This document shows, piece after piece, positions 3,666-60,522 of a stretch of 64,000 nucleotides of DNA (within the stretch, counting starts at the first letter, position 1; the number at the start of each line of letters is the position of its first letter). This DNA comes from Myxococcaceae bacterium (GTDB lineage Bacteria > Myxococcota > Myxococcia > Myxococcales > Myxococcaceae): NCBI GenBank assembly GCA_016793095.1, contig JAEUJQ010000032.1, positions 310,001 through 374,000 of the forward strand. The letters run 5' to 3'. Both the position numbers and the translations under genes were made by a program. The notes under the pieces were generated by a model. That model did no database searches. It saw only the letters and a list, made by a program, of their open reading frames with translations, and had not been told where the DNA came from.

Positions 3666-3668
3666 TCG

Positions 3669-7013: not shown

Positions 7014-7023
7014 CGGAAGATCC

Positions 7024-8558: not shown

Positions 8559-8610
8559 GCGAGAATCTCCTCAACGGAACCGGAAAGGCGACGAGAGGCT
8601 CCCACCACCC

Positions 8611-10539: not shown

Positions 10540-11549
10540 TTGAGCACCGGGAGCTTGAAGCCAGGACGCGGCTTGCCGAGCTGGAACATGTCCTGGTGTT
10601 TGTAGGCGATGAGCAGGTCGAGCAGCTCCGACGGCTGGCCCTTCTTGCGCTTGTCGAGCTCGGCCGAGAGCCGCTTCAGCACGTCGTGCACCGCGGGCCC
10701 GAAGAGGCTCTCGAGGTACGCGGTGGGAATGCGCTCGCTGCCCTCGATGGGCTTGCCCGTCTTGTCGAAGCGGCGCGGCCCGGGCAGCGGCGGCACGTAG
10801 TAGACGTTCGGCTGCGTGCCGTACTCGGGGTGCAGGCCCAGCGCGACCTGGTACTTCTTCACCAGCTTGTGCACCTGGCTGTTCTCGTCGTCGAGGTAGC
10901 CGACGAAGCGGATGCGGCCCACGCACTGGTCGGCGCACGCCGGCGGCAGCCCCTGCTCGATGCGCGGGAAGCAGAAGATGCACTTCTCGGACTTCGACAG
11001 CTTCGGGTTGAAATAGATCTTCTTGTACGGGCACGCCGCGATGCACTGCCGGTTGCCCTCGCAGCGGTTGAGGTCCACCAGCACGATGCCGTCCTGGTCG
11101 CGCTTGAAGATGGCCTGCCGCGGGCACGCCGCGAGGCAGCTCGGGTTCGAGCAGTGGTTGCAGATGCGGGGCAGGTAGAAGAAGTGCGAGTTGGGGAAGT
11201 CACCCGCGCCCACGTCTTCGTCCCAGTTGGGCCCGACGCGCGGCTCGGTCTGCGCGTGCACCTCGGCGCCCTTGAGGATCTCGTCCGAGTTGTAGTCCCA
11301 GGGCACGCCGTAGTCGCCGTAGCGCGAGGGCACCACGCCCTCCTTCAAGTTGCCCCTGTCGTCGAAGCCGCCGCCCAGCTCCTCCCACTTCTTCGGGAAG
11401 CCGGCGCCGGGCTTCGTCTCGACGTTGTTCCAGTACATGCCCTCGCGGCCGTTGCGGTTCGTCCACTGCGTCTTGCAGGCCACGGTGCACGTCTGGCAGC
11501 CGATGCACTTGTTGAGGTCCATCACCATCGCGAGCTGGCGGGTCGACAT
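10536..11549 (-). CDS. Type II molybdoenzyme beta subunit (NarH/SerB/EbdB-like iron-sulfur protein)
   Basis: 337 residues, typical for beta subunits of selenate, chlorate, DMS and ethylbenzene enzymes. Motifs in order: CIGCQTCTVACK, CNHCSNPSCLAACP, CEGNRQCIAACPYKKIYFNP and CIFCFPRI...CADQCVGRIRFVG. In the third motif the position that is Trp in NarH is Asn (CEGNRQC), consistent with one [3Fe-4S] cluster alongside three [4Fe-4S]. It links the molybdenum subunit to the heme gamma subunit. It lies 11 bp after the alpha-subunit stop. Confidence 0.92.
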   Translation of the reverse strand: MSTRQLAMVMDLNKCIGCQTCTVACKTQWTNRNGREGMYWNNVETKPGAGFPKKWEELGGGFDDRGNLKEGVVPSRYGDYGVPWDYNSDEILKGAEVHAQTEPRVGPNWDEDVGAGDFPNSHFFYLPRICNHCSNPSCLAACPRQAIFKRDQDGIVLVDLNRCEGNRQCIAACPYKKIYFNPKLSKSEKCIFCFPRIEQGLPPACADQCVGRIRFVGYLDDENSQVHKLVKKYQVALGLHPEYGTQPNVYYVPPLPGPRRFDKTGKPIEGSERIPTAYLESLFGPAVHDVLKRLSAELDKRKKGQPSELLDLLIAYKHQDMFQLGKPRPGFKLPVLK

Positions 11550-11560
11550 GGTGGCTCCTC

Positions 11561-14434
11561 TCAGACCTTCGCCAGGTCGACGGTGGTCTCGTAGGCGTGC
11601 TGGTTGCCGTCCCAGTTCGTGCCGAACTTGAGGTGGCCCCAGCCGTCGGACAGCTCGAGCAGGTTGAGCATGTCGCCGACCAGCAGGTTGTGGCCCTTGC
11701 GGCCGGGGTACATGAAGGGCTCCCAGCCGTGCTCGAGCACGAGCCCATCGGGCGGCGCCGACGGCGACACCTTCGCCATCAGCTTCACCTCACCCAGCTC
11801 GTTGTACATCTTCACGAGGTCGCCATCGGCGATGCCGCGCGCCTTCGCCACCTCGGGGTTCACCATCACCGCCGGCTGCCCGCGCTGGAGGCGCAGGAGG
11901 ATGGGCGAGGTCTTGTACGTCGAGTGAATCGACCAGCGCGCGTGCGGCGTGATGAGCACGAAGGGGTGCCGCTTCGGGCGAATGGGCGGCTTCGCCGTCG
12001 GCACGTGGGCGTTGGCGGCGATCCACAGCGGGTGGTCGACGTAGAAGGTGAGCCGCCCGGTGAGCGTGTCGAAGCGGTGGTGCAGGTACAGCTGGTTCTC
12101 GAAGGTGTTGTACGGCCGGTCGGCGTACAGCGGCGAGCTCTTGCCGGCCTTCTCGTTGAGCTGCAGGAAGCCGCCGCGCTCGTACGCGGTCTTCAGAGTG
12201 TTCGGCTTGAACTGGTCGACGTGCTCGAGGGCGTACTCGACCGCGTCCTTGTCGGTGCGCAGCGCGCCGTCCTTCGTGAACTCCTTCACCAGCTCGTCGA
12301 GGCGCCGCGTGCCCGTCTGCGTGTGCGTCTTGTCGACGATGGCGAGGTCTCGCTCGTCCTTCGACTTCGCGTAGCGGGCCTTCGCGAGCGCCTCGAGCTT
12401 CTCGACGACGAGGGTGGCGATCTCCCACTCGCTCTTCGACTCGCCTACGGGCTTCAGCGACGGTGAGGGGTACGCGAGGTTGGCGTAGCGGTGGTAGCCG
12501 GGGTTCGTGCGCAGGTCCCAGCTCTCGTAGGGCGTCTTGCAGGGCAGCAGCACGTCGGCGAACACGCCGAAGTCGCTCATGCGGAAGTCGCCGTAGGCGA
12601 TGAACTTCGCCTTCTCGAGGAAGCCCTTCTGGTAGTGCCCCTTGTTGCGGCGGAACCGCGAGTCGGCGAACAGCAGGAAGTTCTCGACCGTCGTCCAGTA
12701 CGGCTTGCCTTCCTTGTAGCGCTCGTCGTTCTTCCCCTGCTCGAGCAGCTCGACGACCTGCTTGCGGTAGTCGGCCTTCGACAGGCCCGTGCCGCGCCGG
12801 AAGTCTTCGTCGGAGTAGAGGGTGTCGGCGTCGGCCAGGCCGTCACCGAGCATGAACTCGCTGACGAAGCCCGAGGCGAAGCGGTGCACGTACTTGCCCG
12901 AGAACCCCGACAGCCCCTCGAGCCCGGTGATGTTCCACTCGTTCTCGGTGTTCATGCCGCCGTTGGGCCCGAGCTTGCCCATCATCGCGGTGAGCACGGC
13001 GATGGCCCGCTGGCTCAGCATGCCGTTGAAGTGCTTGCCGACGGCGAAGCCCATGGTGATGAGCGCGTTCTTCGCCTGGGTGAGGTCGGTGGCGAGCTCG
13101 TCGACGATCGCCGGGTGCACGCCGGTCAGGTCCTTCACCTTCTCGGGCGCGAAGGCCTCGAGCTCCTTCTTGAAGAGCTCGAAGACCGTGGTGACCTTCA
13201 CCTTCTTGCCGCCCTCGAGGGTGAGCGTCCACGAGCCGTTCAGCGCCGGGTCGATGTCCCAGTCCATGTCGGTGAGGCGCAGCGTCTCGAGCTGGCTGCC
13301 CTCGCTGCCCGGCATGACGGTGAACTTCTTCGTCTTCGTGTTGAAGGCGAGGAAGTTGTCGTGCGGGTGGTCTGCCTTCGCGAACTGCTCGATGGACTTC
13401 GCGTCGACGTCCTTCGCCTTGCGGTCGACCTCCGACAGGCGCACGAGCTCCTTCGTGTCGGTGCGCACGAGCAGCGGCAGGTCGGTGTACTCCTTGAGGA
13501 ACTCGGGCTTGTAGAGCTTCTTCGCGACGATGCGCTGCACGATGGACAGCGCGAGGTGCCCGTCGAAGCCCGCCTTCACCGGCACCCAGAGGTCGGCGTG
13601 GATGCAGGTCGCGTTGTACTCGGGGGTGATGACGATGATCTTCGAGCCGTTGTACTTCGCCTCCCACAGGTAGTGCGCGTCGGGGATGCGCGAGACGTTC
13701 GGGTTGCAGCCCCAGAAGACGGCGATGTTCGTGGTGAAGACGAAGTCGTAGGTGCAGCCGATGTTGCCCTCGCCGTAGACGGCGCTGACGCCGGGGAACA
13801 TGTCACCCACGTAGCTCGCGATGTACGGCCGCACGGCGCCGAGCAGCGCCCCCAGCCGCTTGATGGACGCGGCGCGCGCCTCGGTCAGCACGCCGGCGCC
13901 CACGTGCACGTAGTTCGACGCGGGGCCCTTCTCACGCAGGCCGTCGTAGAGGTGCTGCGCGACCTCGGTGATGGCCTCGTCCCAGCTGATGCGCTGCCAC
14001 TGCCCCGAGCCGCGGGGGCCCACGCGCTTCATCGGGTAGAGCAGCCGGTCCTTCTCGTACATCACCTGGCTGTGCTGGCTGCCCTTGTTGCAGCCGCGCG
14101 GGTTCGCGTCGGGCAGGTTCGGCGCCAGCTGCGGGTACGCCGCCGACTGGTTCTCACGCGTCACCTTGCCGTCCTTCGTCCACACCTCGAAGGCGCAGTT
14201 CCCCTGGCAGTTGACGCAGTGGTACGCGAAGCCGCGCTCGTCGCCAGCGCCGCGCACCGCGCGGAACTCGGCCCGGTAGGCCTCCTCGGTCGACTTCGGG
14301 TCCGGGTAGGCCTTGCGCGCGTCGTCGATGCGCACCGGCTTCGTCTCGGCCCGCGCCGGCGTCGCGCTGGCCGCCTTCGCGACGACACCGGCCGCGACGA
14401 GGTTCTTGAGGGCGTCTCGACGAGAAAAGGACAT
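11561..14434 (-). CDS. Type II DMSO-reductase-family molybdoenzyme, alpha (catalytic) subunit
   Basis: 957 residues. Tat signal SRRDALKNLVAAGVVAK directs periplasmic export. The cluster motif is HX3CX3C (His72, Cys76, Cys80) followed by Cys115 in NPRGCNKG; a His first ligand marks the type II clade (NarG, SerA, ClrA, DdhA, EbdA). The segment YTDLPLLVRTDT is also characteristic of that clade. Asp211 (YVGDMFPG) is the likely Mo ligand. The C-terminal molybdopterin-binding region includes HARWSIHSTYKTSP. The substrate is unknown: the clade includes selenate, chlorate, DMS and hydrocarbon enzymes. Co-location with thiosulfate-type sulfurtransferase and YeeE genes points to a sulfur compound, as inference. 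No dedicated TorD-like gene lies inside this operon. Confidence 0.88.
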   Translation of the reverse strand: MSFSRRDALKNLVAAGVVAKAASATPARAETKPVRIDDARKAYPDPKSTEEAYRAEFRAVRGAGDERGFAYHCVNCQGNCAFEVWTKDGKVTRENQSAAYPQLAPNLPDANPRGCNKGSQHSQVMYEKDRLLYPMKRVGPRGSGQWQRISWDEAITEVAQHLYDGLREKGPASNYVHVGAGVLTEARAASIKRLGALLGAVRPYIASYVGDMFPGVSAVYGEGNIGCTYDFVFTTNIAVFWGCNPNVSRIPDAHYLWEAKYNGSKIIVITPEYNATCIHADLWVPVKAGFDGHLALSIVQRIVAKKLYKPEFLKEYTDLPLLVRTDTKELVRLSEVDRKAKDVDAKSIEQFAKADHPHDNFLAFNTKTKKFTVMPGSEGSQLETLRLTDMDWDIDPALNGSWTLTLEGGKKVKVTTVFELFKKELEAFAPEKVKDLTGVHPAIVDELATDLTQAKNALITMGFAVGKHFNGMLSQRAIAVLTAMMGKLGPNGGMNTENEWNITGLEGLSGFSGKYVHRFASGFVSEFMLGDGLADADTLYSDEDFRRGTGLSKADYRKQVVELLEQGKNDERYKEGKPYWTTVENFLLFADSRFRRNKGHYQKGFLEKAKFIAYGDFRMSDFGVFADVLLPCKTPYESWDLRTNPGYHRYANLAYPSPSLKPVGESKSEWEIATLVVEKLEALAKARYAKSKDERDLAIVDKTHTQTGTRRLDELVKEFTKDGALRTDKDAVEYALEHVDQFKPNTLKTAYERGGFLQLNEKAGKSSPLYADRPYNTFENQLYLHHRFDTLTGRLTFYVDHPLWIAANAHVPTAKPPIRPKRHPFVLITPHARWSIHSTYKTSPILLRLQRGQPAVMVNPEVAKARGIADGDLVKMYNELGEVKLMAKVSPSAPPDGLVLEHGWEPFMYPGRKGHNLLVGDMLNLLELSDGWGHLKFGTNWDGNQHAYETTVDLAKV

Positions 14435-47355: not shown

Positions 47356-49674
47356 TCATCGGCGTCGCCGCAGGCAGGTGAGCGCGAAGACGAGCCAGAG
47401 CCCTCCATCGCCCGACACCGACGAGCAGCCGGTGTTCGCCGCGACGCCGCCGGGCCGCCCGCCTGCGGTGCCGCCTGAACCACCCGTGCCCGATGAGCCG
47501 CCGCCCGTCGCAGGTGCGCCCCCGCCCGTGCCTGACATTCCACCGCCGGGGCCGCTCAACCCTCCGCCGGTGCCTGAGGTTCCGCCGCCGGTCCCCGACA
47601 CGCCGCCGCCGGTCCCCGACATGCCGCCGCCGGTCCCCGACATGCCGCCGCCGGTCCCCGAGGTTCCGCCACCGGTGCCCGAGGTTCCTCCACCCGTGCC
47701 CGACGCTCCTCCGCCCGTACCGGACATGCCGCCGCCGGTGCCACTCATGCCGCCAGCCGCGCCTCCACCGGTGCCCGACGTGCCGCCGCCGGTCCCGCTC
47801 ATGCCGCCGCCGGTCCCGCTCATGCCGCCGCCGGTCCCGCTCATCCCGCCGCCGGTCCCGCTCATCCCGCCAGCCGCGCCTCCGCCGGTACCCGCCGAGC
47901 CTCCGCCGGTTCCTCCGCTCGGTGACGTGCCGTAGCGCCACGCGCGCGTGATGGCGACCTCGTCGAGCTCTCCGTCGAACGCGCCGTCTCCATTCGGGCA
48001 CGCCGCGCGGGCTCCGGGCGCACCGATGCTCAGTACGTCGTTCGTCCCTGCGAGCGTCGCGGGGGCGCGCACGACGCGGTTCGTCTCCACGCCGTTCACC
48101 AGGAACACCATCGTCCCGCTGGCGGCGTCGTACTGGAAGGCGACGTGCGTCCACTGGCCGAGGGGAGCGGCCGCCATCGAGCGGATGTCGTACTGCACGC
48201 CTCCAGCGACCCGCACGCGCGCCTGGAATGAGCGGTCCTCCTCGAGCACGAGGCTGTACGCGCCGTTGATGTTCGGCTTGCCCAGCAGCATCCGGTAGTT
48301 GTTGTTCGCGTCGCAGTTCGGCTCCGTGCGCGGCTTGAGCGACAGCTCGACGGTGATGGCGTTGACGGGCAGCAGGCTCGTCGCGTGCGGCACCTCGACC
48401 CGCCCCGACAGGCCGTCGAACGAGATCGCCTTGCCGACCCGCCCGTTGTTCCGCGCAGGGTACGACGCGCCGCCGCGCAGCGTGCCAGTGTTCGAGTAGC
48501 CCGAGCTGTCGGCCGTGCGCGCGCGGTCGTAGGTGCCCTGCGCGGTGACGAACTCGTTGAAGTGCCACATGCCCGCGTAGCGGCCGTCGAGCGAGTCGTC
48601 GAAGACCACCTCGCCGTAGTTCGACGTGTTGCTGCCGAAGAAGGGCCACACGTCGATGCCCCGCGTGAGCGGGAGCGGCAGCGCGTTCATCGGCCCCGGC
48701 GACGAGAAGAACAACCGCACCGTGTCGTCCGTCGCGGGGTTCAGCGCGCCGTCGACGTGGGCGACCTGCCAGTTCGTCGGGTAGCCGATGAACGAGAGCG
48801 CGTTGCGTCGCGGGCCGCAGCCCGGCGGATCTTCGTTCGGCGGGTTCACCCGGCACGGCATGTTCACCGCGGTGAAGTTGACCGCCTCGCCGTCAGGGAA
48901 GATCCACGGGTAGCCGCCGTAGACGAGCTGCGTCGAGGTGAACGCGACGCCCGCCGGATCGCGCAGCGGGCGCTCGGCGATGCGGTAGCGGCCCTGCACC
49001 AGCGGGTCGGTGTTCATCGCGGCGATGGTCTTCGGCGCCGTCCACCCCGACAGCCCACAGGCCGTCTGGTTCACCGAGTAGACGATGGTGTCGATGGCGC
49101 CGGAGTTGTTCGGGTGGCCCTGCCAGACCAGCAGCTTCCCGTCGCGGGTGACGGAGGGTTCGATGCCCCGCAGCGTGGGCTGCAGCGGCGTCAGGGTCGA
49201 GTCAGTCCACGAGAAGCTCGAGACGGTGGCCTGCGCGGTGTTCGGGTTCGACACCACCACCTTCAGGCGCCGACGGCGCAGCACGTTGTTGGGGGCGGGC
49301 GTCTCGGCGTTCGAGTCGATGACGACGAAGTCGTAGCAGCGGTGGCTCCCGCCGGACGCGGGCGCACCCGAGGCGTTGCACGCGACCGGCTGCGCGGTCT
49401 CTTCACACATCGCGAGCGCGTTCTCGGCGCTCATCGCCGGCTGAATGAGCACGCCGGGCGAGAAGGCGTTCGAGAACGAAGGCGGTTGTCCGGCGGGCGT
49501 GCTCACCGCCTGGGGACGCAGCACCCGCGCTTCCCAGCCCGGGCCGGTGCGCACGATGAAGAGCCTGCCGTCGAACGAGACGTTGTGGCCGTTGCCGCCA
49601 AAGGGCGTCGACACCACGTTGGTGCTCGTCGCGGCGAGGGTGACGCTGGTGAGGAGAAGCGCGGGGGTGATCAT
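47356..49674 (-). CDS. LamG-type surface protein with Gly-rich spacer and MYXO-CTERM-like tail
   Basis: 772 residues from ATG 49674, giving a signal peptide (MITPALLLTSVTLAATS). The first 400 residues are beta-rich with propeller-like repeats (PSVTRDGKLLVWQGHPNN). A concanavalin/LamG domain follows (VEVPHATSLLPVNAITVELSL, WTHVAFQYDAASGTMVFLVNG, ELDEVAITRAWRYG). A spacer of GTGGG(M/A/V)S repeats leads to TGCSS, a short hydrophobic stretch (GLWLVFALTCL) and RRRR, the pattern of MYXO-CTERM sorting signals. Probably cell-surface and possibly carbohydrate-binding. Confidence 0.85.
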   Translation of the reverse strand: MITPALLLTSVTLAATSTNVVSTPFGGNGHNVSFDGRLFIVRTGPGWEARVLRPQAVSTPAGQPPSFSNAFSPGVLIQPAMSAENALAMCEETAQPVACNASGAPASGGSHRCYDFVVIDSNAETPAPNNVLRRRRLKVVVSNPNTAQATVSSFSWTDSTLTPLQPTLRGIEPSVTRDGKLLVWQGHPNNSGAIDTIVYSVNQTACGLSGWTAPKTIAAMNTDPLVQGRYRIAERPLRDPAGVAFTSTQLVYGGYPWIFPDGEAVNFTAVNMPCRVNPPNEDPPGCGPRRNALSFIGYPTNWQVAHVDGALNPATDDTVRLFFSSPGPMNALPLPLTRGIDVWPFFGSNTSNYGEVVFDDSLDGRYAGMWHFNEFVTAQGTYDRARTADSSGYSNTGTLRGGASYPARNNGRVGKAISFDGLSGRVEVPHATSLLPVNAITVELSLKPRTEPNCDANNNYRMLLGKPNINGAYSLVLEEDRSFQARVRVAGGVQYDIRSMAAAPLGQWTHVAFQYDAASGTMVFLVNGVETNRVVRAPATLAGTNDVLSIGAPGARAACPNGDGAFDGELDEVAITRAWRYGTSPSGGTGGGSAGTGGGAAGGMSGTGGGMSGTGGGMSGTGGGMSGTGGGTSGTGGGAAGGMSGTGGGMSGTGGGASGTGGGTSGTGGGTSGTGGGMSGTGGGMSGTGGGVSGTGGGTSGTGGGLSGPGGGMSGTGGGAPATGGGSSGTGGSGGTAGGRPGGVAANTGCSSVSGDGGLWLVFALTCLRRRR
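47470..47925 (-). repeat. Tandem repeat coding GTGGGxS spacer
   Basis: About 17-20 in-frame copies of a 21-bp unit encoding GTGGGMS and variants in the LamG protein gene. Copy-number variation by slippage is likely. Confidence 0.92.
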
Positions 49675-49813
49675 CGACTGCCTCCAGGACCGCCCTCGTA
49701 CAGGGTCTCGTGCGCCGTCCGCAATTCCAACTCGGGTCCTCGGGTGTGCACGCGAGGTGGCACCACTCTGCGGGGGTCTTGCCTGCATTCGTCCGACGCG
49801 CCATCACGGGGCC

Positions 49814-51055
49814 ATGCGCTCGTCGTTGCTGCTGCTCCTCGTCCTCGCCGCCGCCTGTGGGCCCCCGATGCCTGCTGCAGACGCCGGGAGCCCGGCAACG
49901 GACGCGGGGCTCGACCTGGTTGACGCTGGGAGCCCGGCGGACGCAGGAGCGGTGGACGCGGGCCCAGCGAGCGACGGTGGGCCGTTCATTCCAGTCGTCA
50001 TTCAAGCGAGCCTCTTCTGGAGCGACGCCGGCGTCGTCGATGACCCGCAGGTGGTGAGCTTCTCGAAGCTGATGCGGCTCGCCTCACACGACGACCACGG
50101 AGGGCGCCTGCTGTCCGAGTGGTTCCATCGCTTCGCGACGACGCCTCACAGCGAGCGGGCGCTGCCCGCCCAGTTCATCGACGAGGTCGCGCGCGTGCAG
50201 GGCGCCGACCCGTCACGCTGGGACCTGTCACGGCTGCCCTTCGTCATCACCGGGCTTCACAACCGCGTCGATCTCGCGGCGCTCGAGCCAGGCGGCCACT
50301 GCGGCGAGTTCCGCGTCTCGGCGGCCAGCACGGACCCGACGCTGCAGCCGTTCCACATGCTCTTCCTGTTCCGCCAGCCGCTCGAGGCCGACGACACGGT
50401 GAACGGCCGCGTCACCTGCGAAGGCACCGCGCGGCGCTGGGCGCAGCTCTCGACGCTCACCGGCCCGGCGCTCGACGCCGCGCTCAAGGCCACGTTCGCG
50501 CGGCGGCTCACCCGCGAGCACTTCCTGCTCATCGAGACCGTGGAGCAATCGCTGTCACCGTGGGAGTGGCGGCAGTGGGTGAAGGCGCCGTCGAGCTCGG
50601 GCCTGCCCTTCGTGCTCGAGAACCCGCCGCTCTTCCAGCAGCTCGACCTCGAGCGTCTGAATCAGCCGGGAGCGCTGCGCTCCTCGTTCCTGGCGTGGCT
50701 CGAGACGAACGCCGACGCTGCCGTCACCCGCCGCGCGCCGATTCCCGAGGCCTTCCGCCCGCCGTCCGTGCGCGCGGTCGCGGGGGTGCCGCGGCAGCCG
50801 CTATCGCTCGCGGGACTCGACGCGCAGGTGCTGGCGCGCCACCCCACCTTGCGGCAGCAGCTCGAGCTCGTCGGGTGCGCGGCCTGTCACACCGCCGACG
50901 CCGACTTCGTGCAGACGCGGGCCGACCGCTCCATCAGTCCCTTCTACGCGAAGGAGCTCGACGCGCGTGCGCGCCACCTCGAGCGTCTCTCGAGAGGGGA
51001 AGCGCCAACCGCGCCCTTCGGTCCTCTCCAGGCGATGCCCGCGCTGCCGCCCTGA
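49814..51055 (+). CDS. Cytochrome-like lipoprotein (one CXXCH)
   Basis: 413 residues from ATG 49814, giving lipobox LAAACG and a DAG-rich linker. The 350-residue body is not a known fold. A single CXXCH (GCAACHTADADF) near the C-terminus should bind heme c. It starts the plus-strand heme cluster, about 200 bp before the first EB_dh lipoprotein. Exposure outside the inner membrane is likely from the lipid anchor. Confidence 0.8.
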   Translation: MRSSLLLLLVLAAACGPPMPAADAGSPATDAGLDLVDAGSPADAGAVDAGPASDGGPFIPVVIQASLFWSDAGVVDDPQVVSFSKLMRLASHDDHGGRLLSEWFHRFATTPHSERALPAQFIDEVARVQGADPSRWDLSRLPFVITGLHNRVDLAALEPGGHCGEFRVSAASTDPTLQPFHMLFLFRQPLEADDTVNGRVTCEGTARRWAQLSTLTGPALDAALKATFARRLTREHFLLIETVEQSLSPWEWRQWVKAPSSSGLPFVLENPPLFQQLDLERLNQPGALRSSFLAWLETNADAAVTRRAPIPEAFRPPSVRAVAGVPRQPLSLAGLDAQVLARHPTLRQQLELVGCAACHTADADFVQTRADRSISPFYAKELDARARHLERLSRGEAPTAPFGPLQAMPALPP

Positions 51056-51107
51056 GCTGAATCCTCTTTCGCTCGTCAGCACTCTCACTCGCGAGTTCCT
51101 GACGGCG

Positions 51108-51125
51108 TGTCAGGTCGAGCTGACA
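51108..51125. promoter_or_regulatory. Palindrome upstream of the heme cluster
   Basis: tgtcag and ctgaca flank gtcgag, 16 of 18 bases symmetric, about 135 bp before the 51258 gene. A gcgc-ttttt-gcgc hairpin lies at 51167-51179. Either could be an operator or an attenuator element; neither is followed by a convincing T tract. Confidence 0.35.
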
Positions 51126-51257
51126 GTGCGCGCTGGCGTACAGCGACGCACGCGATCGAAGTGCAGGCGCTTTTTGCGCAGACGCAACGATTGCATTGGG
51201 AGTGCGCTTTTCCGCTGCCCCTGACCGGGGACTCCGGTTTGCACCGGCTCAGCCGCG

Positions 51258-52889
51258 ATGACCCGCTTCGCGTTGCTGTGCGCGCTGACGCTTGTAGTCG
51301 CGTGTAAACCCCCTCCGTACGAATACCCCGACGCCGCGGTTCCGGGAACACCGCTCACACTCGACTCGGTCGCACCCAACGAGGGTCGCGCGAACGAGGA
51401 CACCGAGCTGACGCTGCTGGGCAACGGCTTCCAGGACGGTCTGGTGGTGCTGGTCGGCAGCCGCGTGGTGACGAGCGTGGCCATCCGCAATCAGGCCGTA
51501 GTGACCGGCATCCTGCAGAAGGGCAGCCGCCCGGGGACCTATGACGTGACGGTGGTGAGCGCGAAAGGCGAGCGCGTGAGCCTGTCCCAGGCCTTCACCG
51601 TCGTGCCAGCAGCAACGGGCGGCGGCACGGCAGGCGGTGGCACGGCAGGCGGTGGCACGGCAGGCGGTGGCACGGCAGCCGGCACGGCGGCCGGCGGCAC
51701 GGCAGGTGGTGGGGCGGCAGGGGCGGCAGGTGGTGGGGCGGCAGGTGGTGGGGCGGCAGGTGGTGGGGCGGCAGGTGGCGGCACGTCAGGTGGCGGCACG
51801 TCAGGTGGTGGGGCGACAGGTGGCGGCACGGCGGGCGGCACGAGTGGTGGCGGACTGGCGGGGGGAATGGCTGGGGGCGCTCCGGCAACGGTGACGTTCG
51901 CGCTCGGCGTCGTGAACAACATGTTCGCGCCCCCGCAGACCGCACAGCGCCTCAACCTGCTCTTCCGGCCCGGCACCGCGTCTCCGATGACGGTGGTCTC
52001 TCAGCGCACGGCGGTGCCGCCCTCCATCGACGGCCTCGACGGTGACTGGAGCGCCGCCCCGGCGAGCACGGTGGCGCTCTCGAGTCCGGGCTCCGTCATC
52101 GGGATGAGTGAGCTGCAGTGGAACGCCGAGCTCGCGCCGTTCGGCCGCACCTGGCCTTTCGACTTCTTCATCACCTCGGCGACGGTGAAGTCGATGTGGG
52201 ACGACCAGAACCTCTACTTCCTCGTTCAGTGGGCCGACCCGACGCCCAACACGCTGAAAGGAACCCTCACCTACGACGGCGACGCCGGGCTGTGGCGACG
52301 GAACCTGGAGGACGAAGACCGCCTCACCCTCTCCTTCAACATCAACAACTCCTTCCCCGGGTTCGAGGTCATCGGCTGCGCGGCGGCCTGTCACGTCAAC
52401 CGGAACCTCGGTGACACCTCTGACGCTGGCCGCGCCTTCCGGCTGAGCATGCACACCAACGGCCCCACCGAGTTCGCCGATGTGTGGGAGTGGAACTCGG
52501 CGACCACCAACCCGATGTTCGCCGCCGACGACTCGTATTGGGACGTCACCCGCCGGAACGCCGACGGCCCCGTCTCGTGGACCACCAGCAACGTGCGCAA
52601 CCTGTCGGATGGGGGCGTCGAGCCCGTCTCGATGGGCGCAGGGGGCGTCAACTCGAACCCGGCTGCCATCTTCTCTCCGGACTCGGGGCTCACCCCCGCC
52701 GCGGTCCTCTTCGACGGAACGGGGGTCTCCGACGGCACCACCGTTCCCGGAGTCGTCCATCGCCAGGCCAGCCCGGCGCGCTCGGACTTGCGCGCCCGCG
52801 GCCGCTGGAGCGCTGGCGTCTGGACAGTGGAGCTCTCACGCGCCCGCCTCACCACGGATTCCAATGATGCCCAGTTCCCCAACCAGTGA
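51258..52889 (+). CDS. IPT/EB_dh heme-binding lipoprotein with CX3CH
   Basis: 543 residues. Lipobox LVVACK, an IPT/TIG domain (SVAPNEGRANEDTELTLLG, about 35-105), a Gly-rich spacer (about 118-210) and a C-terminal ethylbenzene-dehydrogenase-like (EB_dh) domain (IDGLDGDWSAAP, NLYFLVQWADPTPN, DEDRLTLSFNI). A heme-type motif with three spacing residues (GCAAACHVN) sits in that domain. EB_dh domains normally hold heme b through Met/Lys, so a CX3CH covalent heme would be unusual. The 3' end overlaps the next lipoprotein gene by 26 bp. Confidence 0.85.
   Translation: MTRFALLCALTLVVACKPPPYEYPDAAVPGTPLTLDSVAPNEGRANEDTELTLLGNGFQDGLVVLVGSRVVTSVAIRNQAVVTGILQKGSRPGTYDVTVVSAKGERVSLSQAFTVVPAATGGGTAGGGTAGGGTAGGGTAAGTAAGGTAGGGAAGAAGGGAAGGGAAGGGAAGGGTSGGGTSGGGATGGGTAGGTSGGGLAGGMAGGAPATVTFALGVVNNMFAPPQTAQRLNLLFRPGTASPMTVVSQRTAVPPSIDGLDGDWSAAPASTVALSSPGSVIGMSELQWNAELAPFGRTWPFDFFITSATVKSMWDDQNLYFLVQWADPTPNTLKGTLTYDGDAGLWRRNLEDEDRLTLSFNINNSFPGFEVIGCAAACHVNRNLGDTSDAGRAFRLSMHTNGPTEFADVWEWNSATTNPMFAADDSYWDVTRRNADGPVSWTTSNVRNLSDGGVEPVSMGAGGVNSNPAAIFSPDSGLTPAAVLFDGTGVSDGTTVPGVVHRQASPARSDLRARGRWSAGVWTVELSRARLTTDSNDAQFPNQ
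51615..51880 (+). repeat. Tandem repeat coding Gly/Thr/Ala-rich spacer
   Basis: Runs of ggcggcacggca and ggtggtggggcg units, in frame, encode GGGTA/GGGAA repeats between the IPT and EB_dh domains. Confidence 0.92.
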
Positions 52890-53385
52890 GCGCTGGGCGC
52901 TGCTCGGCGCCATGCTGACGCTCGCCGTGCTGCCCGGCTGTTGGGAAGGTCCCAGGGTCGGCGCGCTCAACGAGGAGTTCGTCCCCACGGCCGGCGGGGC
53001 ACCGGACACCGGCGACGACGCGGGGACCCTGGCGGACGCCGGCGCCCCCGGCCTGCCCTTCTCCCGCATCGTCACGACCATTCTGGTGCCCAGCTGCGCC
53101 GACGCCTCGTGCCACGGCGGGAATCCGCCGCCGTTCGCGCCGATGTCTCTCGAGGCCAGCACCGCGTGGAGCTCGCTCGTCAACAAACCAGCGAGCCAGG
53201 TGCCCACCATGCTGCGGGTCGCGCCCAGGGACCCCGGCGAGAGCTACCTCATGAAGAAGCTGCTCGGCACCGCCCGCTCCGTGGGCGGCGTGGACTCGAC
53301 CATGCCGCTGTTCCGCCCGCCGCTCGACGCCGAGAAGCTCGACGCCATTCGCAGCTGGATTGCCCGAGGTGCCCCCAATGACTGA
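52864..53385 (+). CDS. Lipoprotein with CX4CH cytochrome motif
   Basis: 173 residues; ATG 52864 or 52867, inside the end of the preceding gene. Lipobox VLPGCW. The domain (SCADASCHGG, then LVNKPASQVPT, PGESYLMKKLLG, MPLFRPPLDAEKLDAIRSWI) matches the small cytochrome-like family with CX4CH that is common in Myxococcota and Planctomycetes. Probably binds a heme in a c-type-like way. Overlaps the porin gene by 8 bp. Confidence 0.82.
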   Translation: MMPSSPTSERWALLGAMLTLAVLPGCWEGPRVGALNEEFVPTAGGAPDTGDDAGTLADAGAPGLPFSRIVTTILVPSCADASCHGGNPPPFAPMSLEASTAWSSLVNKPASQVPTMLRVAPRDPGESYLMKKLLGTARSVGGVDSTMPLFRPPLDAEKLDAIRSWIARGAPND

Positions 53386-54529
53386 CCGTCAGCGGTTGCT
53401 CCGGGGCTTCGTCGCCGGGCTCATCATCGCGGGCGTGCTCGCCATTCCGGCGGGCGCCAGCACCGTCACCTTCGCTGGCTCGGCCTTCGCCGACTACTGG
53501 TTCACGACCTCCGAGGCCGCCCGGCGCGCGTCCGTCACGGGCTTCACCGGCCTCACCGGCTTCACCCCCGAGGCCGCCATCAAGCTCGAAGCCGACGTTC
53601 ACGAGAAGCTCTCGTTCACGGGCCGCGCGTGCTTCGGCTGCCATGGCGTCGAGGTCGATCGCGTCCACATCGACTACACGCCCTCGACGTACTTCAACAT
53701 CCAGGCTGGCCGAATCGGCGTGCCCTTCGGAGAGATGTCGATTCGGTACGACCCCACCAGCCACCGCTCGGTCAGCAAGCCGCTCATCTACGACATGGGC
53801 CGCATGGCCTACTACGGGCCCAACGCCTTCAACCTCGGCGTGGTGCCCCAGCCCTACGTCGAGACCGGCGCGGTGGTGTACGGGCAGCTCCAGCCGACCG
53901 AGACGTTCCAGATCTGGTACGGCGCGTACATCGTCGCGGGCATGCGCGGGAACAACGACTTCGACTTCCGCGCGATGCGCCAGCCCTTCTACGTCGACAA
54001 CAACGACGAGCCGGCGGGCGGCGGACGGGTGGTGTTCACCTGGTCACCTGAGAACTCGCTCATCAAGGACGTGCAGTTCGGGTTGTCGGGCATGTACGGC
54101 CGCTACGACGCGAAACGAACGCTGGCCTACACCGCGCTCGGAGCTGACGCGGCCCTGCGCATCGGCGCCGTCACGGTGCGCTCCGAGGTGGCCTTCATCC
54201 GCGTGGACCTGCAGCGCGACCCCCGCCTGTACCGCTACCGCCTCATCGACACGTACATGGACAAGGGTGGCGGCTTCGTCGAGGTCGAGCACCCCATCAC
54301 CTCGTGGCTGTCGACGCTCTACCGCTTCGACGTCCTGGCGCGAAAGGCGAACCCCTTCACCGAGTCCTTGCGCGAGCTGACCCCCGACAGCCGCATCTAC
54401 CGGTACACCCAGGCCTTCCAGCTGCTGCTCACGGACTCTGCGTACGCGAAGGTCTCGTACGAGTACTGGCACCCCACCGACTTTCCAACCTTCCACTCCG
54501 TCCACGTCGGACTGGGAGGGACGTTCTAG
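53378..54529 (+). CDS. Porin-like beta-barrel with an internal CXXCH
   Basis: 383 residues from ATG 53378 (signal MTDRQRLLRGFVAGLIIAGVLA, AGAS). Most of the chain alternates strands of a porin-like barrel (FNIQAGRIGVPFGEMS, FQIWYGAYIVAGM, VEVEHPITSWLSTLYRFDV) and ends with a typical terminal strand ...HVGLGGTF. Near residue 88, RACFGCHGVEVDR provides one CXXCH. Outer-membrane porins rarely carry heme themselves; this could be a heme-bearing electron conduit. It sits between cytochrome lipoproteins and a kinase. Confidence 0.82.
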   Translation: MTDRQRLLRGFVAGLIIAGVLAIPAGASTVTFAGSAFADYWFTTSEAARRASVTGFTGLTGFTPEAAIKLEADVHEKLSFTGRACFGCHGVEVDRVHIDYTPSTYFNIQAGRIGVPFGEMSIRYDPTSHRSVSKPLIYDMGRMAYYGPNAFNLGVVPQPYVETGAVVYGQLQPTETFQIWYGAYIVAGMRGNNDFDFRAMRQPFYVDNNDEPAGGGRVVFTWSPENSLIKDVQFGLSGMYGRYDAKRTLAYTALGADAALRIGAVTVRSEVAFIRVDLQRDPRLYRYRLIDTYMDKGGGFVEVEHPITSWLSTLYRFDVLARKANPFTESLRELTPDSRIYRYTQAFQLLLTDSAYAKVSYEYWHPTDFPTFHSVHVGLGGTF

Positions 54530-54544
54530 CAGCAGGGTGTCGCC

Positions 54545-57061
54545 ATGACCGACTCGGACAAGATCGCGAGGTACTCCATCATCCGCCGGCTCGGCACGGG
54601 CGGCATGGCCGAGGTGTTCAAGTGCCACTTCGAAGGGCTCGGCGGCTTCGACAAGGTGGTGGTGGTGAAGCGCATTCTGCCCCACCTCGCCGAGGACGAG
54701 ACCTTCGTCTCGATGTTCCTCGATGAGGCGCGCATCGCCTCGAACCTGAACCACCCCAACGTGGTGCAGATCTACGAGATCGACCAGGACGAAGACGGCC
54801 GCCCCTACATCGCGATGGAGTTCGTCAAGGGCCCGACGTTCTCCCAGCTCATCCGCGCGGCCTTCAAGGCCGGCCCGGCGCCCGTCGCCAAGATGGTGAA
54901 GATCATCATCGGCGCGGCGATGGGCCTCGACCACGCGCACAACTCCACGTCGCCCGACGGCACCCCGCTGAACATCGTCCACCGCGACGTGAGCCCGCAC
55001 AACATCATGGTGTCGGTGGACGGCATTCCGAAGATCCTCGACTTCGGCGTCGCGCGCGCGAACGGACGGCTCACCCACACGCGCAGCGGCACGGTGAAGG
55101 GGAAGGCGCGCTTCATCGCGCCTGAGCTGCTGAGAGACCCGAACACCCTGTCCGCCCGCTGCGACGTCTTCAGCCTCGGCGTCTGTCTCTACGCGGCCAC
55201 CACGGGCGCGTACCCTTTCGAAGGGCAGACGGAAGCAGAGATCATGGAGTCGATCGCCCGCGGCGCGTTCCGCAAGCCGTCCGAGGTGATTCCGACGTAC
55301 CCGGCAGACCTCGAGGACATCGTGCTGTGGGCGCTCTGCCAGAAGCCCGAGCTGCGGTGCCCGTCGTGCAAGGACCTGGGAGAGCGGCTGAACGCGTGGC
55401 TGGTCGCGTCGCAGCAGGCGGTGACGTCGCAGGAGCTGGGCAAGTGGGTGCGAGAGCTCTTCCCGAACGTCGATGACGAGGCCTGGGGCGCCGACTGGGC
55501 TCGAACGCCGTCGAACAGGACGAGCGGCGAGTGGAAGGTCGCCTCGTTCGCTGGAGACCCGAGGCGCGTTCCCGTGCGCATCAAGCTGCCGTACGCGACC
55601 GAGGGCGAGTTCGTCGAGCGCTACGGGGGCAACGTCACCCGCGACGGCATCTTCATCGCGAGCCGCGTCACCAAGCCGGTGGGCACCGCCCTCATCTTCG
55701 AGCTGGTGCTGGCTGACGGCTCGCGGTTGATGCGCGGCGAAGGCGAGGTGACCGCCGAAACGACCGAGGGCCGGACCGGCATCCCCGTGCGCTTCGGTCG
55801 CCTCGACCCGCGAACCCGCGCGCTCGTCGATCGCATCGTGGTCGCCCGAGAGGCCAAAGAGCTGGCGAACCCGCAGGAGCCCATCAAGTCAGACTTCACC
55901 TTCGTCGTCACCGTCGATGATCCGCTCGTCGTGCGACGGCGCCGCTTCGCCATCGCCTCGGCCGTCGCGGCGGTCGCTGCCCTGCTGGTGGTGTGGCTGT
56001 GGCCGACGAAGGCCCCGACGGCCCGGCCCTACCTCGACGAGGCCAAGCGCGCCATTCTCGCCGGGAAGCTGCCCGTCGCCACCGAGCTCGTCGAGAAGGC
56101 CCGGAAGGTGCCCGAGCTACCCCACCACGAGATGATCGAAGCGGCCCACCTCGCCGAGTCGCTGAAGGTCTCGACGCTGGTCGGGGAGGCGAGCTCGGCC
56201 ATCTCGCGAAACGACGTCGCCGCGGCGACGGTGAAGCTGGACGAGGTCGAGCGGCTGTGGCCCTCGAGCCCCGAGGTCCGCCGCCTTCGCGGCGAGCTCG
56301 ACAGGCTGCGGCCCGCGACCGACCCCCCGGCCGTCGCGGTCAACGAGCCGGCGCCCGCTGCGCCGGACGAGATCGACCTCTCCGCCCCAGCGCCGGGAGC
56401 GACGAAGCAGGTCCGCCCTGCGGGGAAGCCTGTCGCTGTCAGGCCCGGGTCGCAGCCGCAGCCCACCGATGCTCAACCCACGCCGACTCCCGCGTCCACG
56501 CCGACTCCCGCGGCCATCCCCAGTCCCCCGCCGCCCTCGCTCCTCAAGCTGACCGCCCCGGTGACCGCCCAGCTCACCATCGACGGCCGGCCGGCGGGCC
56601 ACACCCCACTCGAGCTGTCCACGCTCGCGCCTGGCGAGCACACGGTGGCGGCGACCGCTGAGGGCTTCGAGCCGCTGGTGCAGAAGGTGACCGTAGCCGC
56701 CGGCGAGACGAGCTCGGTGGCCCTCGAGCTCAAGGCCATCGTCAAGCAGGCGGTGAAGGCGCCCCCTCCGCCGCCGGACGAGCCCGAGCCCGCGGCCAAC
56801 GAGGCCGCGCTCGCCGCGCTCGGCAACTGCCCCGAAGACACCACCGCGCAGGGCAGCCCGCCGCCGGCCGGGCTCAGCGTGTGGTGCGCGACCGCTGACG
56901 GCGTCAAGCACGGCCGCTTCCTCAGGTGGCACAAGAACGGCCAGCGCGCCGAAGACGGCGCCTTCTTCAACGGCAAGAAGAACGGGCAGTGGATTGAGTA
57001 TTTCGAGGACGGTACCGAGCGCGACCGCATGACGTGGCGGCGCGGCGTGAAGACATGGTGA
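54545..57061 (+). CDS. Ser/Thr protein kinase with PilZ-, PEGA- and MORN-type modules
   Basis: 838 residues. Kinase domain about 10-285: GTGGMAEV loop (17-24), Lys42, HRDVSPHN catalytic loop, DFG and APELL. A PilZ-like region (about 335-435; RVPVRIKLPYATEGEF) may bind c-di-GMP. A membrane helix lies near 460-480 (FAIASAVAAVAALLVVWLW). The outer part has a PEGA domain (LTIDGRPAGHTPLELS) and MORN-type repeats at the end (GRFLRWHKNGQRAEDG, NGQWIEYFEDGTERD). Likely senses something in the envelope and phosphorylates cytoplasmic targets. Embedded between cytochrome genes. Confidence 0.92.
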   Translation: MTDSDKIARYSIIRRLGTGGMAEVFKCHFEGLGGFDKVVVVKRILPHLAEDETFVSMFLDEARIASNLNHPNVVQIYEIDQDEDGRPYIAMEFVKGPTFSQLIRAAFKAGPAPVAKMVKIIIGAAMGLDHAHNSTSPDGTPLNIVHRDVSPHNIMVSVDGIPKILDFGVARANGRLTHTRSGTVKGKARFIAPELLRDPNTLSARCDVFSLGVCLYAATTGAYPFEGQTEAEIMESIARGAFRKPSEVIPTYPADLEDIVLWALCQKPELRCPSCKDLGERLNAWLVASQQAVTSQELGKWVRELFPNVDDEAWGADWARTPSNRTSGEWKVASFAGDPRRVPVRIKLPYATEGEFVERYGGNVTRDGIFIASRVTKPVGTALIFELVLADGSRLMRGEGEVTAETTEGRTGIPVRFGRLDPRTRALVDRIVVAREAKELANPQEPIKSDFTFVVTVDDPLVVRRRRFAIASAVAAVAALLVVWLWPTKAPTARPYLDEAKRAILAGKLPVATELVEKARKVPELPHHEMIEAAHLAESLKVSTLVGEASSAISRNDVAAATVKLDEVERLWPSSPEVRRLRGELDRLRPATDPPAVAVNEPAPAAPDEIDLSAPAPGATKQVRPAGKPVAVRPGSQPQPTDAQPTPTPASTPTPAAIPSPPPPSLLKLTAPVTAQLTIDGRPAGHTPLELSTLAPGEHTVAATAEGFEPLVQKVTVAAGETSSVALELKAIVKQAVKAPPPPPDEPEPAANEAALAALGNCPEDTTAQGSPPPAGLSVWCATADGVKHGRFLRWHKNGQRAEDGAFFNGKKNGQWIEYFEDGTERDRMTWRRGVKTW

Positions 57062-57417
57062 AGACGACGGGTCGGCTGGTGATGGTGCTCATCATGGCCG
57101 GCCCGCTCGCCGTCCTGCCTGCAGACCCGCGCGACCGCGGCCCTGACACCATCGACGTCTCGACCTGGCCAGAGAAGCAGCAAGAGCAGTACAAGACCTT
57201 CACCGTCAAGTGCAGCAAGTGCCACTCCCTCTCTCGGGCGATCAACGCGAAGCTGAAGGCCGACGAGTGGAAGTTGTATGTGAAGAAGATGAAGCGTCGG
57301 GCAGGCTCAGGCATCACCGACACCAACGCCGAGGTGCTGAGCGAGTTCCTCGCCTACTACTCGGCCGTTCGTGAGGGCAGAGCACCCGCGCCAGCCGAGA
57401 ACGGAGCGGCGAAATGA
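57055..57417 (+). CDS. Small c-type cytochrome
   Basis: 120 residues from ATG 57055, overlapping the kinase stop. N-terminal signal or anchor (LVMVLIMAGPLAVLPA). One CXXCH (VKCSKCHSLSRA) and a C-terminal helix with KMKRRAGSG, the Met a possible sixth ligand. Resembles short quinol/cytochrome c partners. ATGA overlap with the diheme cytochrome gene. Confidence 0.88.
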   Translation: MVKTTGRLVMVLIMAGPLAVLPADPRDRGPDTIDVSTWPEKQQEQYKTFTVKCSKCHSLSRAINAKLKADEWKLYVKKMKRRAGSGITDTNAEVLSEFLAYYSAVREGRAPAPAENGAAK

Positions 57418-58202
57418 ACAGACAGGTCGTGCTCGCCTCGGTGGCGGTCGCTGGCATCCTCGTCGGCCTGGCGGCGGCCTTCGGCATTCAGCGTTTCCTC
57501 GCCCCGCCGGTGAGCGAGACGGGCTCGCGCTTCGAGCGGGGCCGGGCGACGGCGGTGAAGATGGGCTGCTTTCTCTGCCATGGCCCGGACGGCCGCGCGG
57601 GCACCGCCAACTTCCTGCCCGAGCTCGACGAGGTCCCGTCGTGGTCGCAGGGCAACTTCGCGACCTACGTGAAGTCGGCAGACGAGGTGCGTGAGTGGAT
57701 CCTCGACGGGGCGCCGAAGCGCATGCTGGCCGACCCTGATGAGAAACGCCGCATCTCGCAGCAGCTCATCAAGATGCCGGGCTACCGCAAGCAGCTGACG
57801 TCGGCCGAGCTGGAAGACCTCGTCTTCTACGTCACCGCCGCCGGGCTCCTGTACCCCTTCGACGAGAACTCACCCGAGGGCCGCGGCCGAGCCGTCGTGT
57901 TGCGGCTGGGGTGCTACGGCTGCCACGGCGCGGAGGGCCGGGGCCGGGCGCCGAACAAGGGCTCCCTCAAGGGGTACATCCCCTCGTGGGACTCGAGCGA
58001 CTGGAACGAGCTGGTCGAGAACCCCCAGGAGCTGCGCGAGTGGGTGCTCGACGGCGCCCCGAAGCGCCTGCGCACGAACCCCGCGGCCAACTTCTTCCTC
58101 ACCACCCAGATGGTGACGATGCCGTCGTACCAGGGGCACCTCGACGACAAGGAGCTCGACGATCTCGTCACCTACGTCCAGTTCGTGAGGACCCGCAGAT
58201 GA
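57414..58202 (+). CDS. Diheme cytochrome c
   Basis: 262 residues with an N-terminal membrane anchor (VVLASVAVAGILVGLAAAFG). Two class I heme domains: CFLCHGPDGRAG and CYGCHGAEGRGR, each followed by a Met (KMPGYRKQL, MPSYQGHL) that can be the sixth ligand. Probably shuttles electrons at the periplasmic side between the inner membrane and the outer-membrane proteins of this cluster. Confidence 0.92.
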   Translation: MNRQVVLASVAVAGILVGLAAAFGIQRFLAPPVSETGSRFERGRATAVKMGCFLCHGPDGRAGTANFLPELDEVPSWSQGNFATYVKSADEVREWILDGAPKRMLADPDEKRRISQQLIKMPGYRKQLTSAELEDLVFYVTAAGLLYPFDENSPEGRGRAVVLRLGCYGCHGAEGRGRAPNKGSLKGYIPSWDSSDWNELVENPQELREWVLDGAPKRLRTNPAANFFLTTQMVTMPSYQGHLDDKELDDLVTYVQFVRTRR

Positions 58203-58212
58203 GGAGTCGGTC

Positions 58213-60522
58213 ATGAACCTGAAGGCCCCGATGCTGCTGGCGCTCTCACTCGCCGCGTGCCCGCCGATCGTCGACGTCCCGGACAGCGGAGCACCTTCGC
58301 TCCTGCGCCTCGACGTCGTCGGACCTGCCGAGGTCCTCTCGACCGAAGACACCACCGTCAGCCTGCTCGGCTTCGGCTTCAAGTCGCCCTGCGTGGTGTT
58401 GCTCGGCGGACGCGCGCTCGGCCGCTCGACGGTGCTTTCGCCGGCAGTGGTGACGGTGGTGGTGCCGCGCGGCACCAGGCTGGGCACCTATGACGTCACC
58501 CTGGTGAACGGCGACGGAGAGCGCGTCACCGCAGCCCAGGCGCTCACTGTCGTCGAGCCGTCGGCCACCGACGGAGGCTCCGACGCGGGCATGGACGCGG
58601 GCGTCGTCATCGAGGTGCCCCTCGGCTGGCAGGCTGGCGCGGTGGTGCCCGGCTACGTGCTCTCGGGGCCCTCGGGCGGCCGCAGCGACGTGCGCGCCGT
58701 CGGGACCTGGGCCCAGGGCCGGTGGACCGTGCGCTTCACCCGCAGCCTCACGACCGTCGACCCGCTCGACGACGTGCAGTTCTCGGGGCTCGCGACCGGC
58801 GCGACGTACTCGCTCGCCGTCGCCGTGCTGGACAACACCGTCGGGGCGCTCGACGCCACCATGCGTGGCCAGCACGCGGCAGCCTACAGGCTGGGCAACG
58901 AGGCCTCGACCGCCGACCTCAAGGCGAAGAGCGTCACGGCGGCTCCGACGTCGAGCCCAACCGACCCGGGCTGGGGCGCTCCCTTCGTGAAGCCCGCTGG
59001 CGACGCGGGCCTGGGCACGGCCACCGGCGCCGCGGTCACCCTGCGCGCGGCGTATGACAGCGCCAACGTGTACCTCCTGGCCGAGTGGGACGACGCGACC
59101 GAGTCTGCCTTGAAGGAGTCGTGGGTCTACGACGGCGCGACGTGGGCACGGCGCCCGGCGAGCACGTTCGACGAAGACCGCCTCGCCATCTTCTGGGACA
59201 TCAGCGTGCCCGACTTCGCGACGCGCGGTTGCGGGGCCCTCTGCCACCCCGTGCGCATGGGCGTCGAGACCGACGCGGGCCCGGGCGTCATCAACGCCGA
59301 CCTGTGGCACTGGAAGGCCGCCCGCACCAACCCGATGGGCTTCGCCGACGACCAGCGCCTCACCTATGGCGTGCGCGAGGGGCGGCTGATGGCCTACCGC
59401 GCCGACGACCTCGGCGCGGGCATGGAGACGGCCAACACGCGCGCCACCGACGCCGGGCCGCGCCCTCTGTCGATGCCTGAGAGCGCGCCCGACGCCTCGG
59501 CCACCTTCCTCTTCTCGTGGCCCCCGGGGAGCGGACGCGCGGTGCCGCTCGTGGGGACGTTCCCGACCGGCGCTGAGCTGCCCGGCTTCACGCTCGGTCC
59601 TCCAGCCGGCGGGCGCAGCGAGCTGCGGACGACGAGCAGCTGGGCGAACGGCCGGTGGACGGTGCTCTTCCGGCGTGCGCTGCGGAACGCCTGGACGACG
59701 GACGACGTGCAGCTCGACGCGCTGGCCGCTGGAGCGACCTACCGCTTCTCAGTGGCCGTCCTCGACAACGCCGGCGGCGCCAACGATGCGACGATGACGA
59801 GCCAGAACGTGGGGCCGCACACGCTGGGGAACGAGGCCAGCACCGCAGACCTGAAGGCCCGCAACGCCGCGCTCCCTCCCACGGCCAACCCCGCTGACCC
59901 CGGCTGGGGCCCGAGCTTCACGAAGCCGGGCGGCAGTGGCATTCCAGGCACCGTGACGGGGAGCGCGGTCGAGCTGAGGGCGGCCTACGACGCGACGAGC
60001 TTCTACCTGCTCGCCACCTGGAGCGATCCGACCGAGTCGATCCGCAAGGAGTCGTGGCGCTTCGATGGCACCCGCTGGGTGCGTCGCTCTGCGCGGGGCA
60101 CGGACAACAGCTGGGCCACCATCGGCGCCGACGACGACCAGTGGGACGAAGACCGGCTCGCCATCTTCTGGGACATCTCGGTGCCCGGCTTCGACACCCG
60201 CGGCTGCGGAGCGCTCTGCCACCCCACCCGCATGGGCATCGAGACCGACGCAGGGCCGGGCGTCATCAACGCCGACCTCTGGCACTGGAAGGCCGCCCGC
60301 ACGGCTCCGATGGGCTTCGCCGACGATCAGCGGCTCACCTGGGGCGTGCGCGACGGGAAGAACATGGCCTACCGGGCGGACGACCTGGGCACGGGCATCG
60401 AGCAGGCCAACACGGTGACGGTGGACGGCGGCGCGCTGCCTGCGTTCGCGTCCGAGACGCCCGCGACGTTCCTCTTCCGCGCTCCGGCAAGCGGCGCGCG
60501 CGCCATCGGCTGGCGCCCCTGA
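58213..60522 (+). CDS. IPT lipoprotein with two tandem EB_dh domains, each with CX3CH
   Basis: 769 residues. Lipobox SLAACP and an IPT/TIG domain (VVGPAEVLSTEDTTVSLLG, about 35-110). Two homologous EB_dh units follow, each with a strand block (DDVQFSGLATGATYSLAV; DDVQLDALAAGATYRFSV), the EDRLAIFWDISVP stretch, GCGALCHP (CX3CH) and DLWHWKAART, a known signature of these heme domains. The duplicated halves are about 60-70% identical by eye. With the 51258 protein this gives three CX3CH sites in EB_dh folds. Probably a surface electron carrier. Confidence 0.88.
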   Translation: MNLKAPMLLALSLAACPPIVDVPDSGAPSLLRLDVVGPAEVLSTEDTTVSLLGFGFKSPCVVLLGGRALGRSTVLSPAVVTVVVPRGTRLGTYDVTLVNGDGERVTAAQALTVVEPSATDGGSDAGMDAGVVIEVPLGWQAGAVVPGYVLSGPSGGRSDVRAVGTWAQGRWTVRFTRSLTTVDPLDDVQFSGLATGATYSLAVAVLDNTVGALDATMRGQHAAAYRLGNEASTADLKAKSVTAAPTSSPTDPGWGAPFVKPAGDAGLGTATGAAVTLRAAYDSANVYLLAEWDDATESALKESWVYDGATWARRPASTFDEDRLAIFWDISVPDFATRGCGALCHPVRMGVETDAGPGVINADLWHWKAARTNPMGFADDQRLTYGVREGRLMAYRADDLGAGMETANTRATDAGPRPLSMPESAPDASATFLFSWPPGSGRAVPLVGTFPTGAELPGFTLGPPAGGRSELRTTSSWANGRWTVLFRRALRNAWTTDDVQLDALAAGATYRFSVAVLDNAGGANDATMTSQNVGPHTLGNEASTADLKARNAALPPTANPADPGWGPSFTKPGGSGIPGTVTGSAVELRAAYDATSFYLLATWSDPTESIRKESWRFDGTRWVRRSARGTDNSWATIGADDDQWDEDRLAIFWDISVPGFDTRGCGALCHPTRMGIETDAGPGVINADLWHWKAARTAPMGFADDQRLTWGVRDGKNMAYRADDLGTGIEQANTVTVDGGALPAFASETPATFLFRAPASGARAIGWRP

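Follow-up and report, generated by a model that had tools for sequence, protein, structure and literature searches.

The window analysed here, a stretch of 64,000 nucleotides from a Myxococcaceae bacterium, carries at positions 49814-60522 a run of eight genes, g1 to g8, all co-directional on the plus strand:

g1, 49814..51055, plus strand: lipoprotein with one CAACH motif near the C-terminus (50876-50890).
g2, 51258..52889, plus strand: lipoprotein with a TIG domain, a Gly/Ala-rich linker and an EB_dh domain carrying a CX3CH motif (CAAACH, 52377-52394).
g3, 52864..53385, plus strand: predicted lipoprotein monoheme cytochrome with a CX4CH motif (CADASCH, 53095-53115).
g4, 53378..54529, plus strand: 16-strand porin of the OprP/OprO type whose strand 3-4 hairpin carries CFGCH (53630-53644).
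g5, 54545..57061, plus strand: Ser/Thr kinase with a PilZ-like TIGR02266 region, one transmembrane helix and, across the membrane, a PEGA domain and a C-terminal repeat.
g6, 57055..57417, plus strand (alternative ORF start 57034): predicted small monoheme cytochrome with CSKCH (57211-57225).
g7, 57414..58202, plus strand: predicted diheme cytochrome c, membrane-anchored by a hydrophobic N-terminus, with CFLCH (57567-57581) and CYGCH (57912-57926).
g8, 58213..60522, plus strand: lipoprotein with an N-terminal part that resembles the TIG region of g2 and two EB_dh units, each with CGALCH (59230-59247 and 60205-60222).

An earlier interpretation made from the letters alone (the sequence-only reading) had described eight plus-strand genes with nine heme-type motifs, and all of them were present. 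The nine CX2-4CH motifs, in frames read from the sequence, amount to at most two per protein; 5000 composition shuffles of the eight proteins averaged 0.012 motifs, the highest count being 1. Across the remaining 39 called genes of the window (16,831 aa) there was a single motif, a CRACH in a doubtful ORF. Intergenic spacing from g2 to g8 was -26 to +15 bp, indicating one operon-like unit, and relatives retain the g2, g3, g4 and g6 motifs.

The view that all eight genes form one system had to be given up. g1, for which the Pfam search returned no family, was rejected as a member because its orthologs (62-77% identity) occur where the barrel is missing from the contig or the genome and because 202 bp separate it from g2. 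Divergent from g1, at 47356-49788 on the minus strand, is a gene for a protein with a long Gly-rich repeat of the GTGGG(M/T)SG type and a C-terminal hydrophobic and RRRR sorting-like tail. g7 matched Cytochrom_C in Pfam (62.8 bits), and its good relatives among 145 genomes were only two, neither of them beside the barrel. By profile score both g2 (81 bits) and g8 (181 bits, in three stretches) belong to the EB_dh family (PF09459, cut-off 33), and g8 is a lineage-specific paralog of g2. g7 and g8 are lineage-specific additions. The EB_dh halves of g8 are ordered C-N-C-N after the N-terminal domain, as if a duplication had involved two circularly permuted units.

The C, C and H of the g2 motif were invariant in six aligned sequences, and the TIG domain of g2 scored 24 bits. 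The AlphaFold model of its EB_dh domain had a pLDDT of 42, at which the heme site was not placeable, and its PDB sequence matches were mostly to low-complexity linkers. In two MAGs (L062 and L066) g2 and g3 are fused into one protein. C78, C83 and H84 of g3 were invariant in a 16-sequence alignment and M147 nearly so, making this Met a candidate distal ligand. A small CSKCH-like cytochrome corresponding to g6 adjoins the barrel in nearly all complete loci.

No Pfam match was found for g4, and a PDB sequence search gave nothing beyond a weak cytochrome match. AlphaFold (AF2) modelled g4, at a mean pLDDT of 84, as a barrel of 16 strands; the CxxCH occupies the turn that joins strand 3 to strand 4 and begins at residue 85, the end of the third predicted strand. 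General porins ranked top in Foldseek, and VIA-align placed OprP first (Z 27.7), with OprO at Z 27.5, at about 15% identity. Model and fold searches confirm the porin-like barrel with a heme motif that the sequence-only reading had proposed. CxxCHG was invariant in 26 of 26 aligned sequences, with C85, C88, H89, G90 and M140 as invariant positions. Counting strands from a periplasmic N-terminus would place the motif at the barrel's outer end; side-chain alternation in the model suggests that C85 points into the lumen, and M140, located in the long loop that follows strand 5, may be the second ligand of a heme attached there. Other myxobacteria have weaker homologs that align chiefly to the profile from position ~86-90 on, and the five examined lack CXXCH, which makes gain or loss of a heme within an ordinary porin lineage probable. 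We found no description of a heme porin of the g4 type in the open-access literature.

The search for the same gene set elsewhere defined a core of g2 (EB_dh lipoprotein), g3 (CX4CH lipoprotein), g4 (heme porin) and g6 (monoheme cytochrome) that recurs across Myxococcota. Two peptide patterns applied to ~85,000 species genomes gave 28 loci, all labelled Myxococcota or broadly named MAGs. Whole-genome search found the heme porin module in all nine genomes searched from the genus to which Anaeromyxobacter belongs and not in some further genera of that family; by our count near full-length matches occur in about 28 of 195 genomes of the phylum. The order g3-g4-g6, often with g2 ahead, is kept across genera, and at nearly every locus sufficiently complete for a judgement a c-type cytochrome gene accompanies the heme porin.

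The slot beside the core is variable. It is occupied by an EB_dh protein in the window, in genomes of the A. dehalogenans type and in several MAGs, by a pentaheme protein in L053, in L078 by a P460-type protein encoded two genes upstream, and in nine Anaeromyxobacter-type loci by a decaheme lipoprotein with MtrC/MtrF domains. The proposal of a conserved envelope redox module around a heme-motif porin is supported, and in the Anaeromyxobacter relatives the module has these MtrC/MtrF-like neighbours. A short N-terminal motif that starts from the lipobox Cys, C-x(1-5)-P-x-[VILM]-G, is common to g3 and the decaheme proteins, and 12 of its 13 carriers among 38 scored lipoproteins lie in the module, in a small sample counted after the motif had been spotted. 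The operon of the window has no MtrC-like neighbour, and MtrC-like proteins are encoded elsewhere in the same genome. One contig of an Anaeromyxobacter MAG (MEMX01000117.1, loci L061 and L060) holds the heme-porin module twice, along with two genes for MtrC-like decaheme proteins. Two clusters of the window's own genome, L166 (G000:C63:150000-168000) and L101 (G000:C90:122000-141999), encode many multiheme cytochromes with 4 to 23 motifs, and L101 includes an MtrC-like decaheme protein.

g5 is a Hanks-type Ser/Thr kinase (Pfam, 127.6 bits; HRD in HRDVSPHN and DFG in the sequence). The genome of the window has at least 151 kinase domains, so that proximity of a kinase alone means little, and we at first favoured a pure chance neighbour. 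This was revised on two observations. In a MAG of a sister genus (G129, contig G129:C306, L132) a g5 ortholog of the same kinase-PEGA-C-terminal layout lies between the porin end and g6 (kinase domain 47% identical, C-terminal repeat 42%); in G051 (L134, 5567-9216, minus strand) another ortholog follows by 8 bp a porin relative without the heme motif, a pair that suggests an older porin-kinase association. The tie thus seems to be one of kinase and porin rather than kinase and heme. No kinase lies between g4 and g6 in the Anaeromyxobacter loci or in L053, and a clear link of this kind was not found for other members of the kinase subfamily; a g5 paralog ends the multiheme cluster on contig C63 (L166). 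Of the built-in kinase of the sequence-only reading there remains a recurrent companion of the porin that stands outside the core and may monitor the porin. In the Anaeromyxobacter loci the genes directly after g6 encode a HAMP-SpoIIE phosphatase, an RsbW-like (HATPase_c_2) protein and a STAS-like protein; a histidine kinase considered for this position was rejected on these Pfam assignments, the STAS match being weak.

The best explanation of the locus, which we hold to be slightly more probable than its negation, is that g2, g3, g4 and g6 form a trans-outer-membrane electron-transfer module, a porin-cytochrome variant with covalent heme c in the porin barrel and swappable surface cytochromes. 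Electrons would leave the inner membrane through the anchored diheme g7 and pass to the small periplasmic g6, from there to the heme of the porin g4 and on to the CX4CH lipoprotein g3, which would hand them to an exchangeable terminal lipoprotein, presumably exposed at the surface. This last carrier would be of the EB_dh type here (g2, with g8 as an extra) and MtrC/MtrF-like in many Anaeromyxobacter, and g5, a sub-clade addition, would probably signal the state of the porin or the periplasm to the cytoplasm.

In favour of electron transfer across the outer membrane are the invariant CxxCHG of the 26 porins on a 16-strand fold, the recurring core order and its presence in all nine searched genomes of the Anaeromyxobacter genus, the MtrC/MtrF-like protein that adjoins the core in nine loci, the exchange of EB_dh, decaheme, pentaheme and P460 proteins in the terminal slot, the g2-g3 fusion, the common lipoprotein motif and the operon-like spacing. 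On the other hand, the single heme of the porin lies near one rim and the 16-strand barrel is probably too narrow for g6, leaving a long electron hop (by estimate) unexplained; with this gap, a conduit shown to span the whole envelope, as first proposed, is not supported. The operon has no multiheme MtrA-like partner, no MtrB-like one and, at the window's own copy, no MtrC-like neighbour, and the regulatory genes that often flank the module suit a sensor too. The distance gap is not fatal, since iron oxidation has been shown for Cyc2, likewise a 16-strand porin with one heme.

The same gap keeps alive, as an unlikely but serious alternative, an outer-membrane redox sensor in which the porin heme would report the redox state outside the cell or in the periplasm through g6 to a membrane signalling protein (g5 here, the HAMP-SpoIIE phosphatase with the RsbW-like and STAS-like proteins in Anaeromyxobacter). 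A single heme fits sensing better than bulk transfer, and the SpoIIE, HATPase_c_2 and STAS-like genes right after g6, the kinase ortholog in the same slot of the sister genus and behind the non-heme porin, and the paralog that closes a multiheme cluster of the window's own genome are all consistent with it. However, the MtrC-like decaheme neighbours indicate transfer on the scale of respiration, the signalling partners are unrelated and differ between clades, and with at least 151 kinases one would fall into a random run of seven genes about 1 time in 7 by rough estimate.

The resemblance to Cyc2 could also be read as function: a soluble reduced metal or other donor would enter the porin and reduce the barrel heme, and g6 and g7 would carry the electrons inward. 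The combination of a 16-strand OprO/OprP-like porin with a single heme, as in Cyc2 (PMC8406198), and the likeness of g6 and g7 to periplasmic carriers agree with such an extracellular oxidase, but the Cyc2-specific motif is missing in all 26 sequences, the heme is at a different site and Cyc2 needs neither lipoprotein cytochromes nor MtrC-like proteins, which makes this improbable. Least probable of all is an uptake or export porin whose heme would be structural or a redox gate, with the cytochromes belonging to an unrelated respiratory operon, a reading to which the non-heme homologs in the same order, one of them also with a kinase, lend some weight, but against which stand the invariant heme motif and the c-type cytochrome gene beside nearly every heme porin in a complete locus.

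If electron transfer is the function, the module could represent a new class of outer-membrane conduit in Myxococcota, in which a small porin with heme c in the barrel wall replaces the MtrAB-type wire and feeds, by way of single-heme partners, exchangeable surface cytochromes, MtrC-like ones among them, and is read out in some genera by a dedicated Ser/Thr kinase; we regard this wider proposal as possible rather than probable. Anaeromyxobacter includes dissimilatory soil Fe(III) reducers, and the porin-cytochrome cluster published for three Anaeromyxobacter strains consists of two genes only, with no gene for an outer-membrane cytochrome (PMC4245776). The module is a concrete candidate for electron transfer in Anaeromyxobacter, and elsewhere in the genus MtrC-like cytochromes adjoin it. 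Were it confirmed, a covalent heme in the barrel wall would be a third outer-membrane electron route besides MtrAB/Pcc and Cyc2, and would raise the problem of how heme attachment is coordinated with barrel insertion.

The sequence-only reading had placed the locus outside the known conduit families, and comparison with each of them agrees with this. Among partial resemblances, a predicted porin with c-heme motifs is also found in GM18_3465 of Geobacter sp. M18, a predicted porin-like 10-heme cytochrome with 21 predicted strands and the hemes in long loops (PMC4245776), whereas g4 has one motif within a short hairpin and forms a conserved family. The OmcS/OmcZ type of multiheme nanowire cytochrome does not occur in the set, no protein of which has more than two motifs. 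According to the available portion of its description, ExtI of the Geobacter ext cluster is likewise a phosphate-porin-like barrel encoded with c-type cytochromes, but that portion reports no heme motif and names a rhodanese-like protein and multiheme cytochromes as partners (PMC5877670). g2 and g8 share the EB_dh family with the gamma subunits of DMSO-reductase-type II enzymes, from which they differ in being lipoproteins with CX3CH and in having no Mo or Fe-S subunit in the operon. Elsewhere in the window, at 3075-14434 on the minus strand, are two molybdopterin oxidoreductase operons, one with NrfD and one with Fe-S and an EB_dh-plus-cytochrome c gamma-like subunit, the latter (~9400-14434) being a canonical operon of the EB_dh gamma type.

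With MtrCAB/Pcc systems (PMC4245776) the module has in common a porin with periplasmic and outer-membrane cytochromes and, in relatives, an MtrC/MtrF-like lipoprotein beside the core; CX3-4CH motifs occur in Pcc outer-membrane cytochromes too (PMC4245776). It differs in a barrel of 16 instead of 26 strands, in the heme on the porin and in its single-heme partners. No MtrB/PioB-type barrel was found in the genome (PF11854 search, zero matches). The operon encodes no multiheme periplasmic cytochrome (one motif in g6, two in g7), and outer-membrane multiheme cytochromes are missing from the window operon but lie beside the core in the nine Anaeromyxobacter-type loci. Barrel size and the lack of a multiheme periplasmic partner rule out membership of MtrCAB/Pcc. 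Cyc2 is a fused cytochrome-porin with a single heme, a 16-strand OprO/OprP-like barrel and shown iron oxidation (PMC8406198), and g4 likewise combines in one chain a single CXXCH and a 16-strand OprO/OprP-like porin. Unlike the N-terminal cytochrome domain of Cyc2, the heme motif of g4 lies inside the barrel, at strands 3-4, and g4 comes with lipoprotein cytochromes; the Cyc2 signature, P-X-FAR[Q/K][T/Y] before and PXL after CXXCH, was found in 0 of 26 sequences of the g4 family. The missing signature and the heme position rule out membership of Cyc2. Although it belongs to neither family, the module most likely works like the Cyc2 and MtrCAB/Pcc systems.
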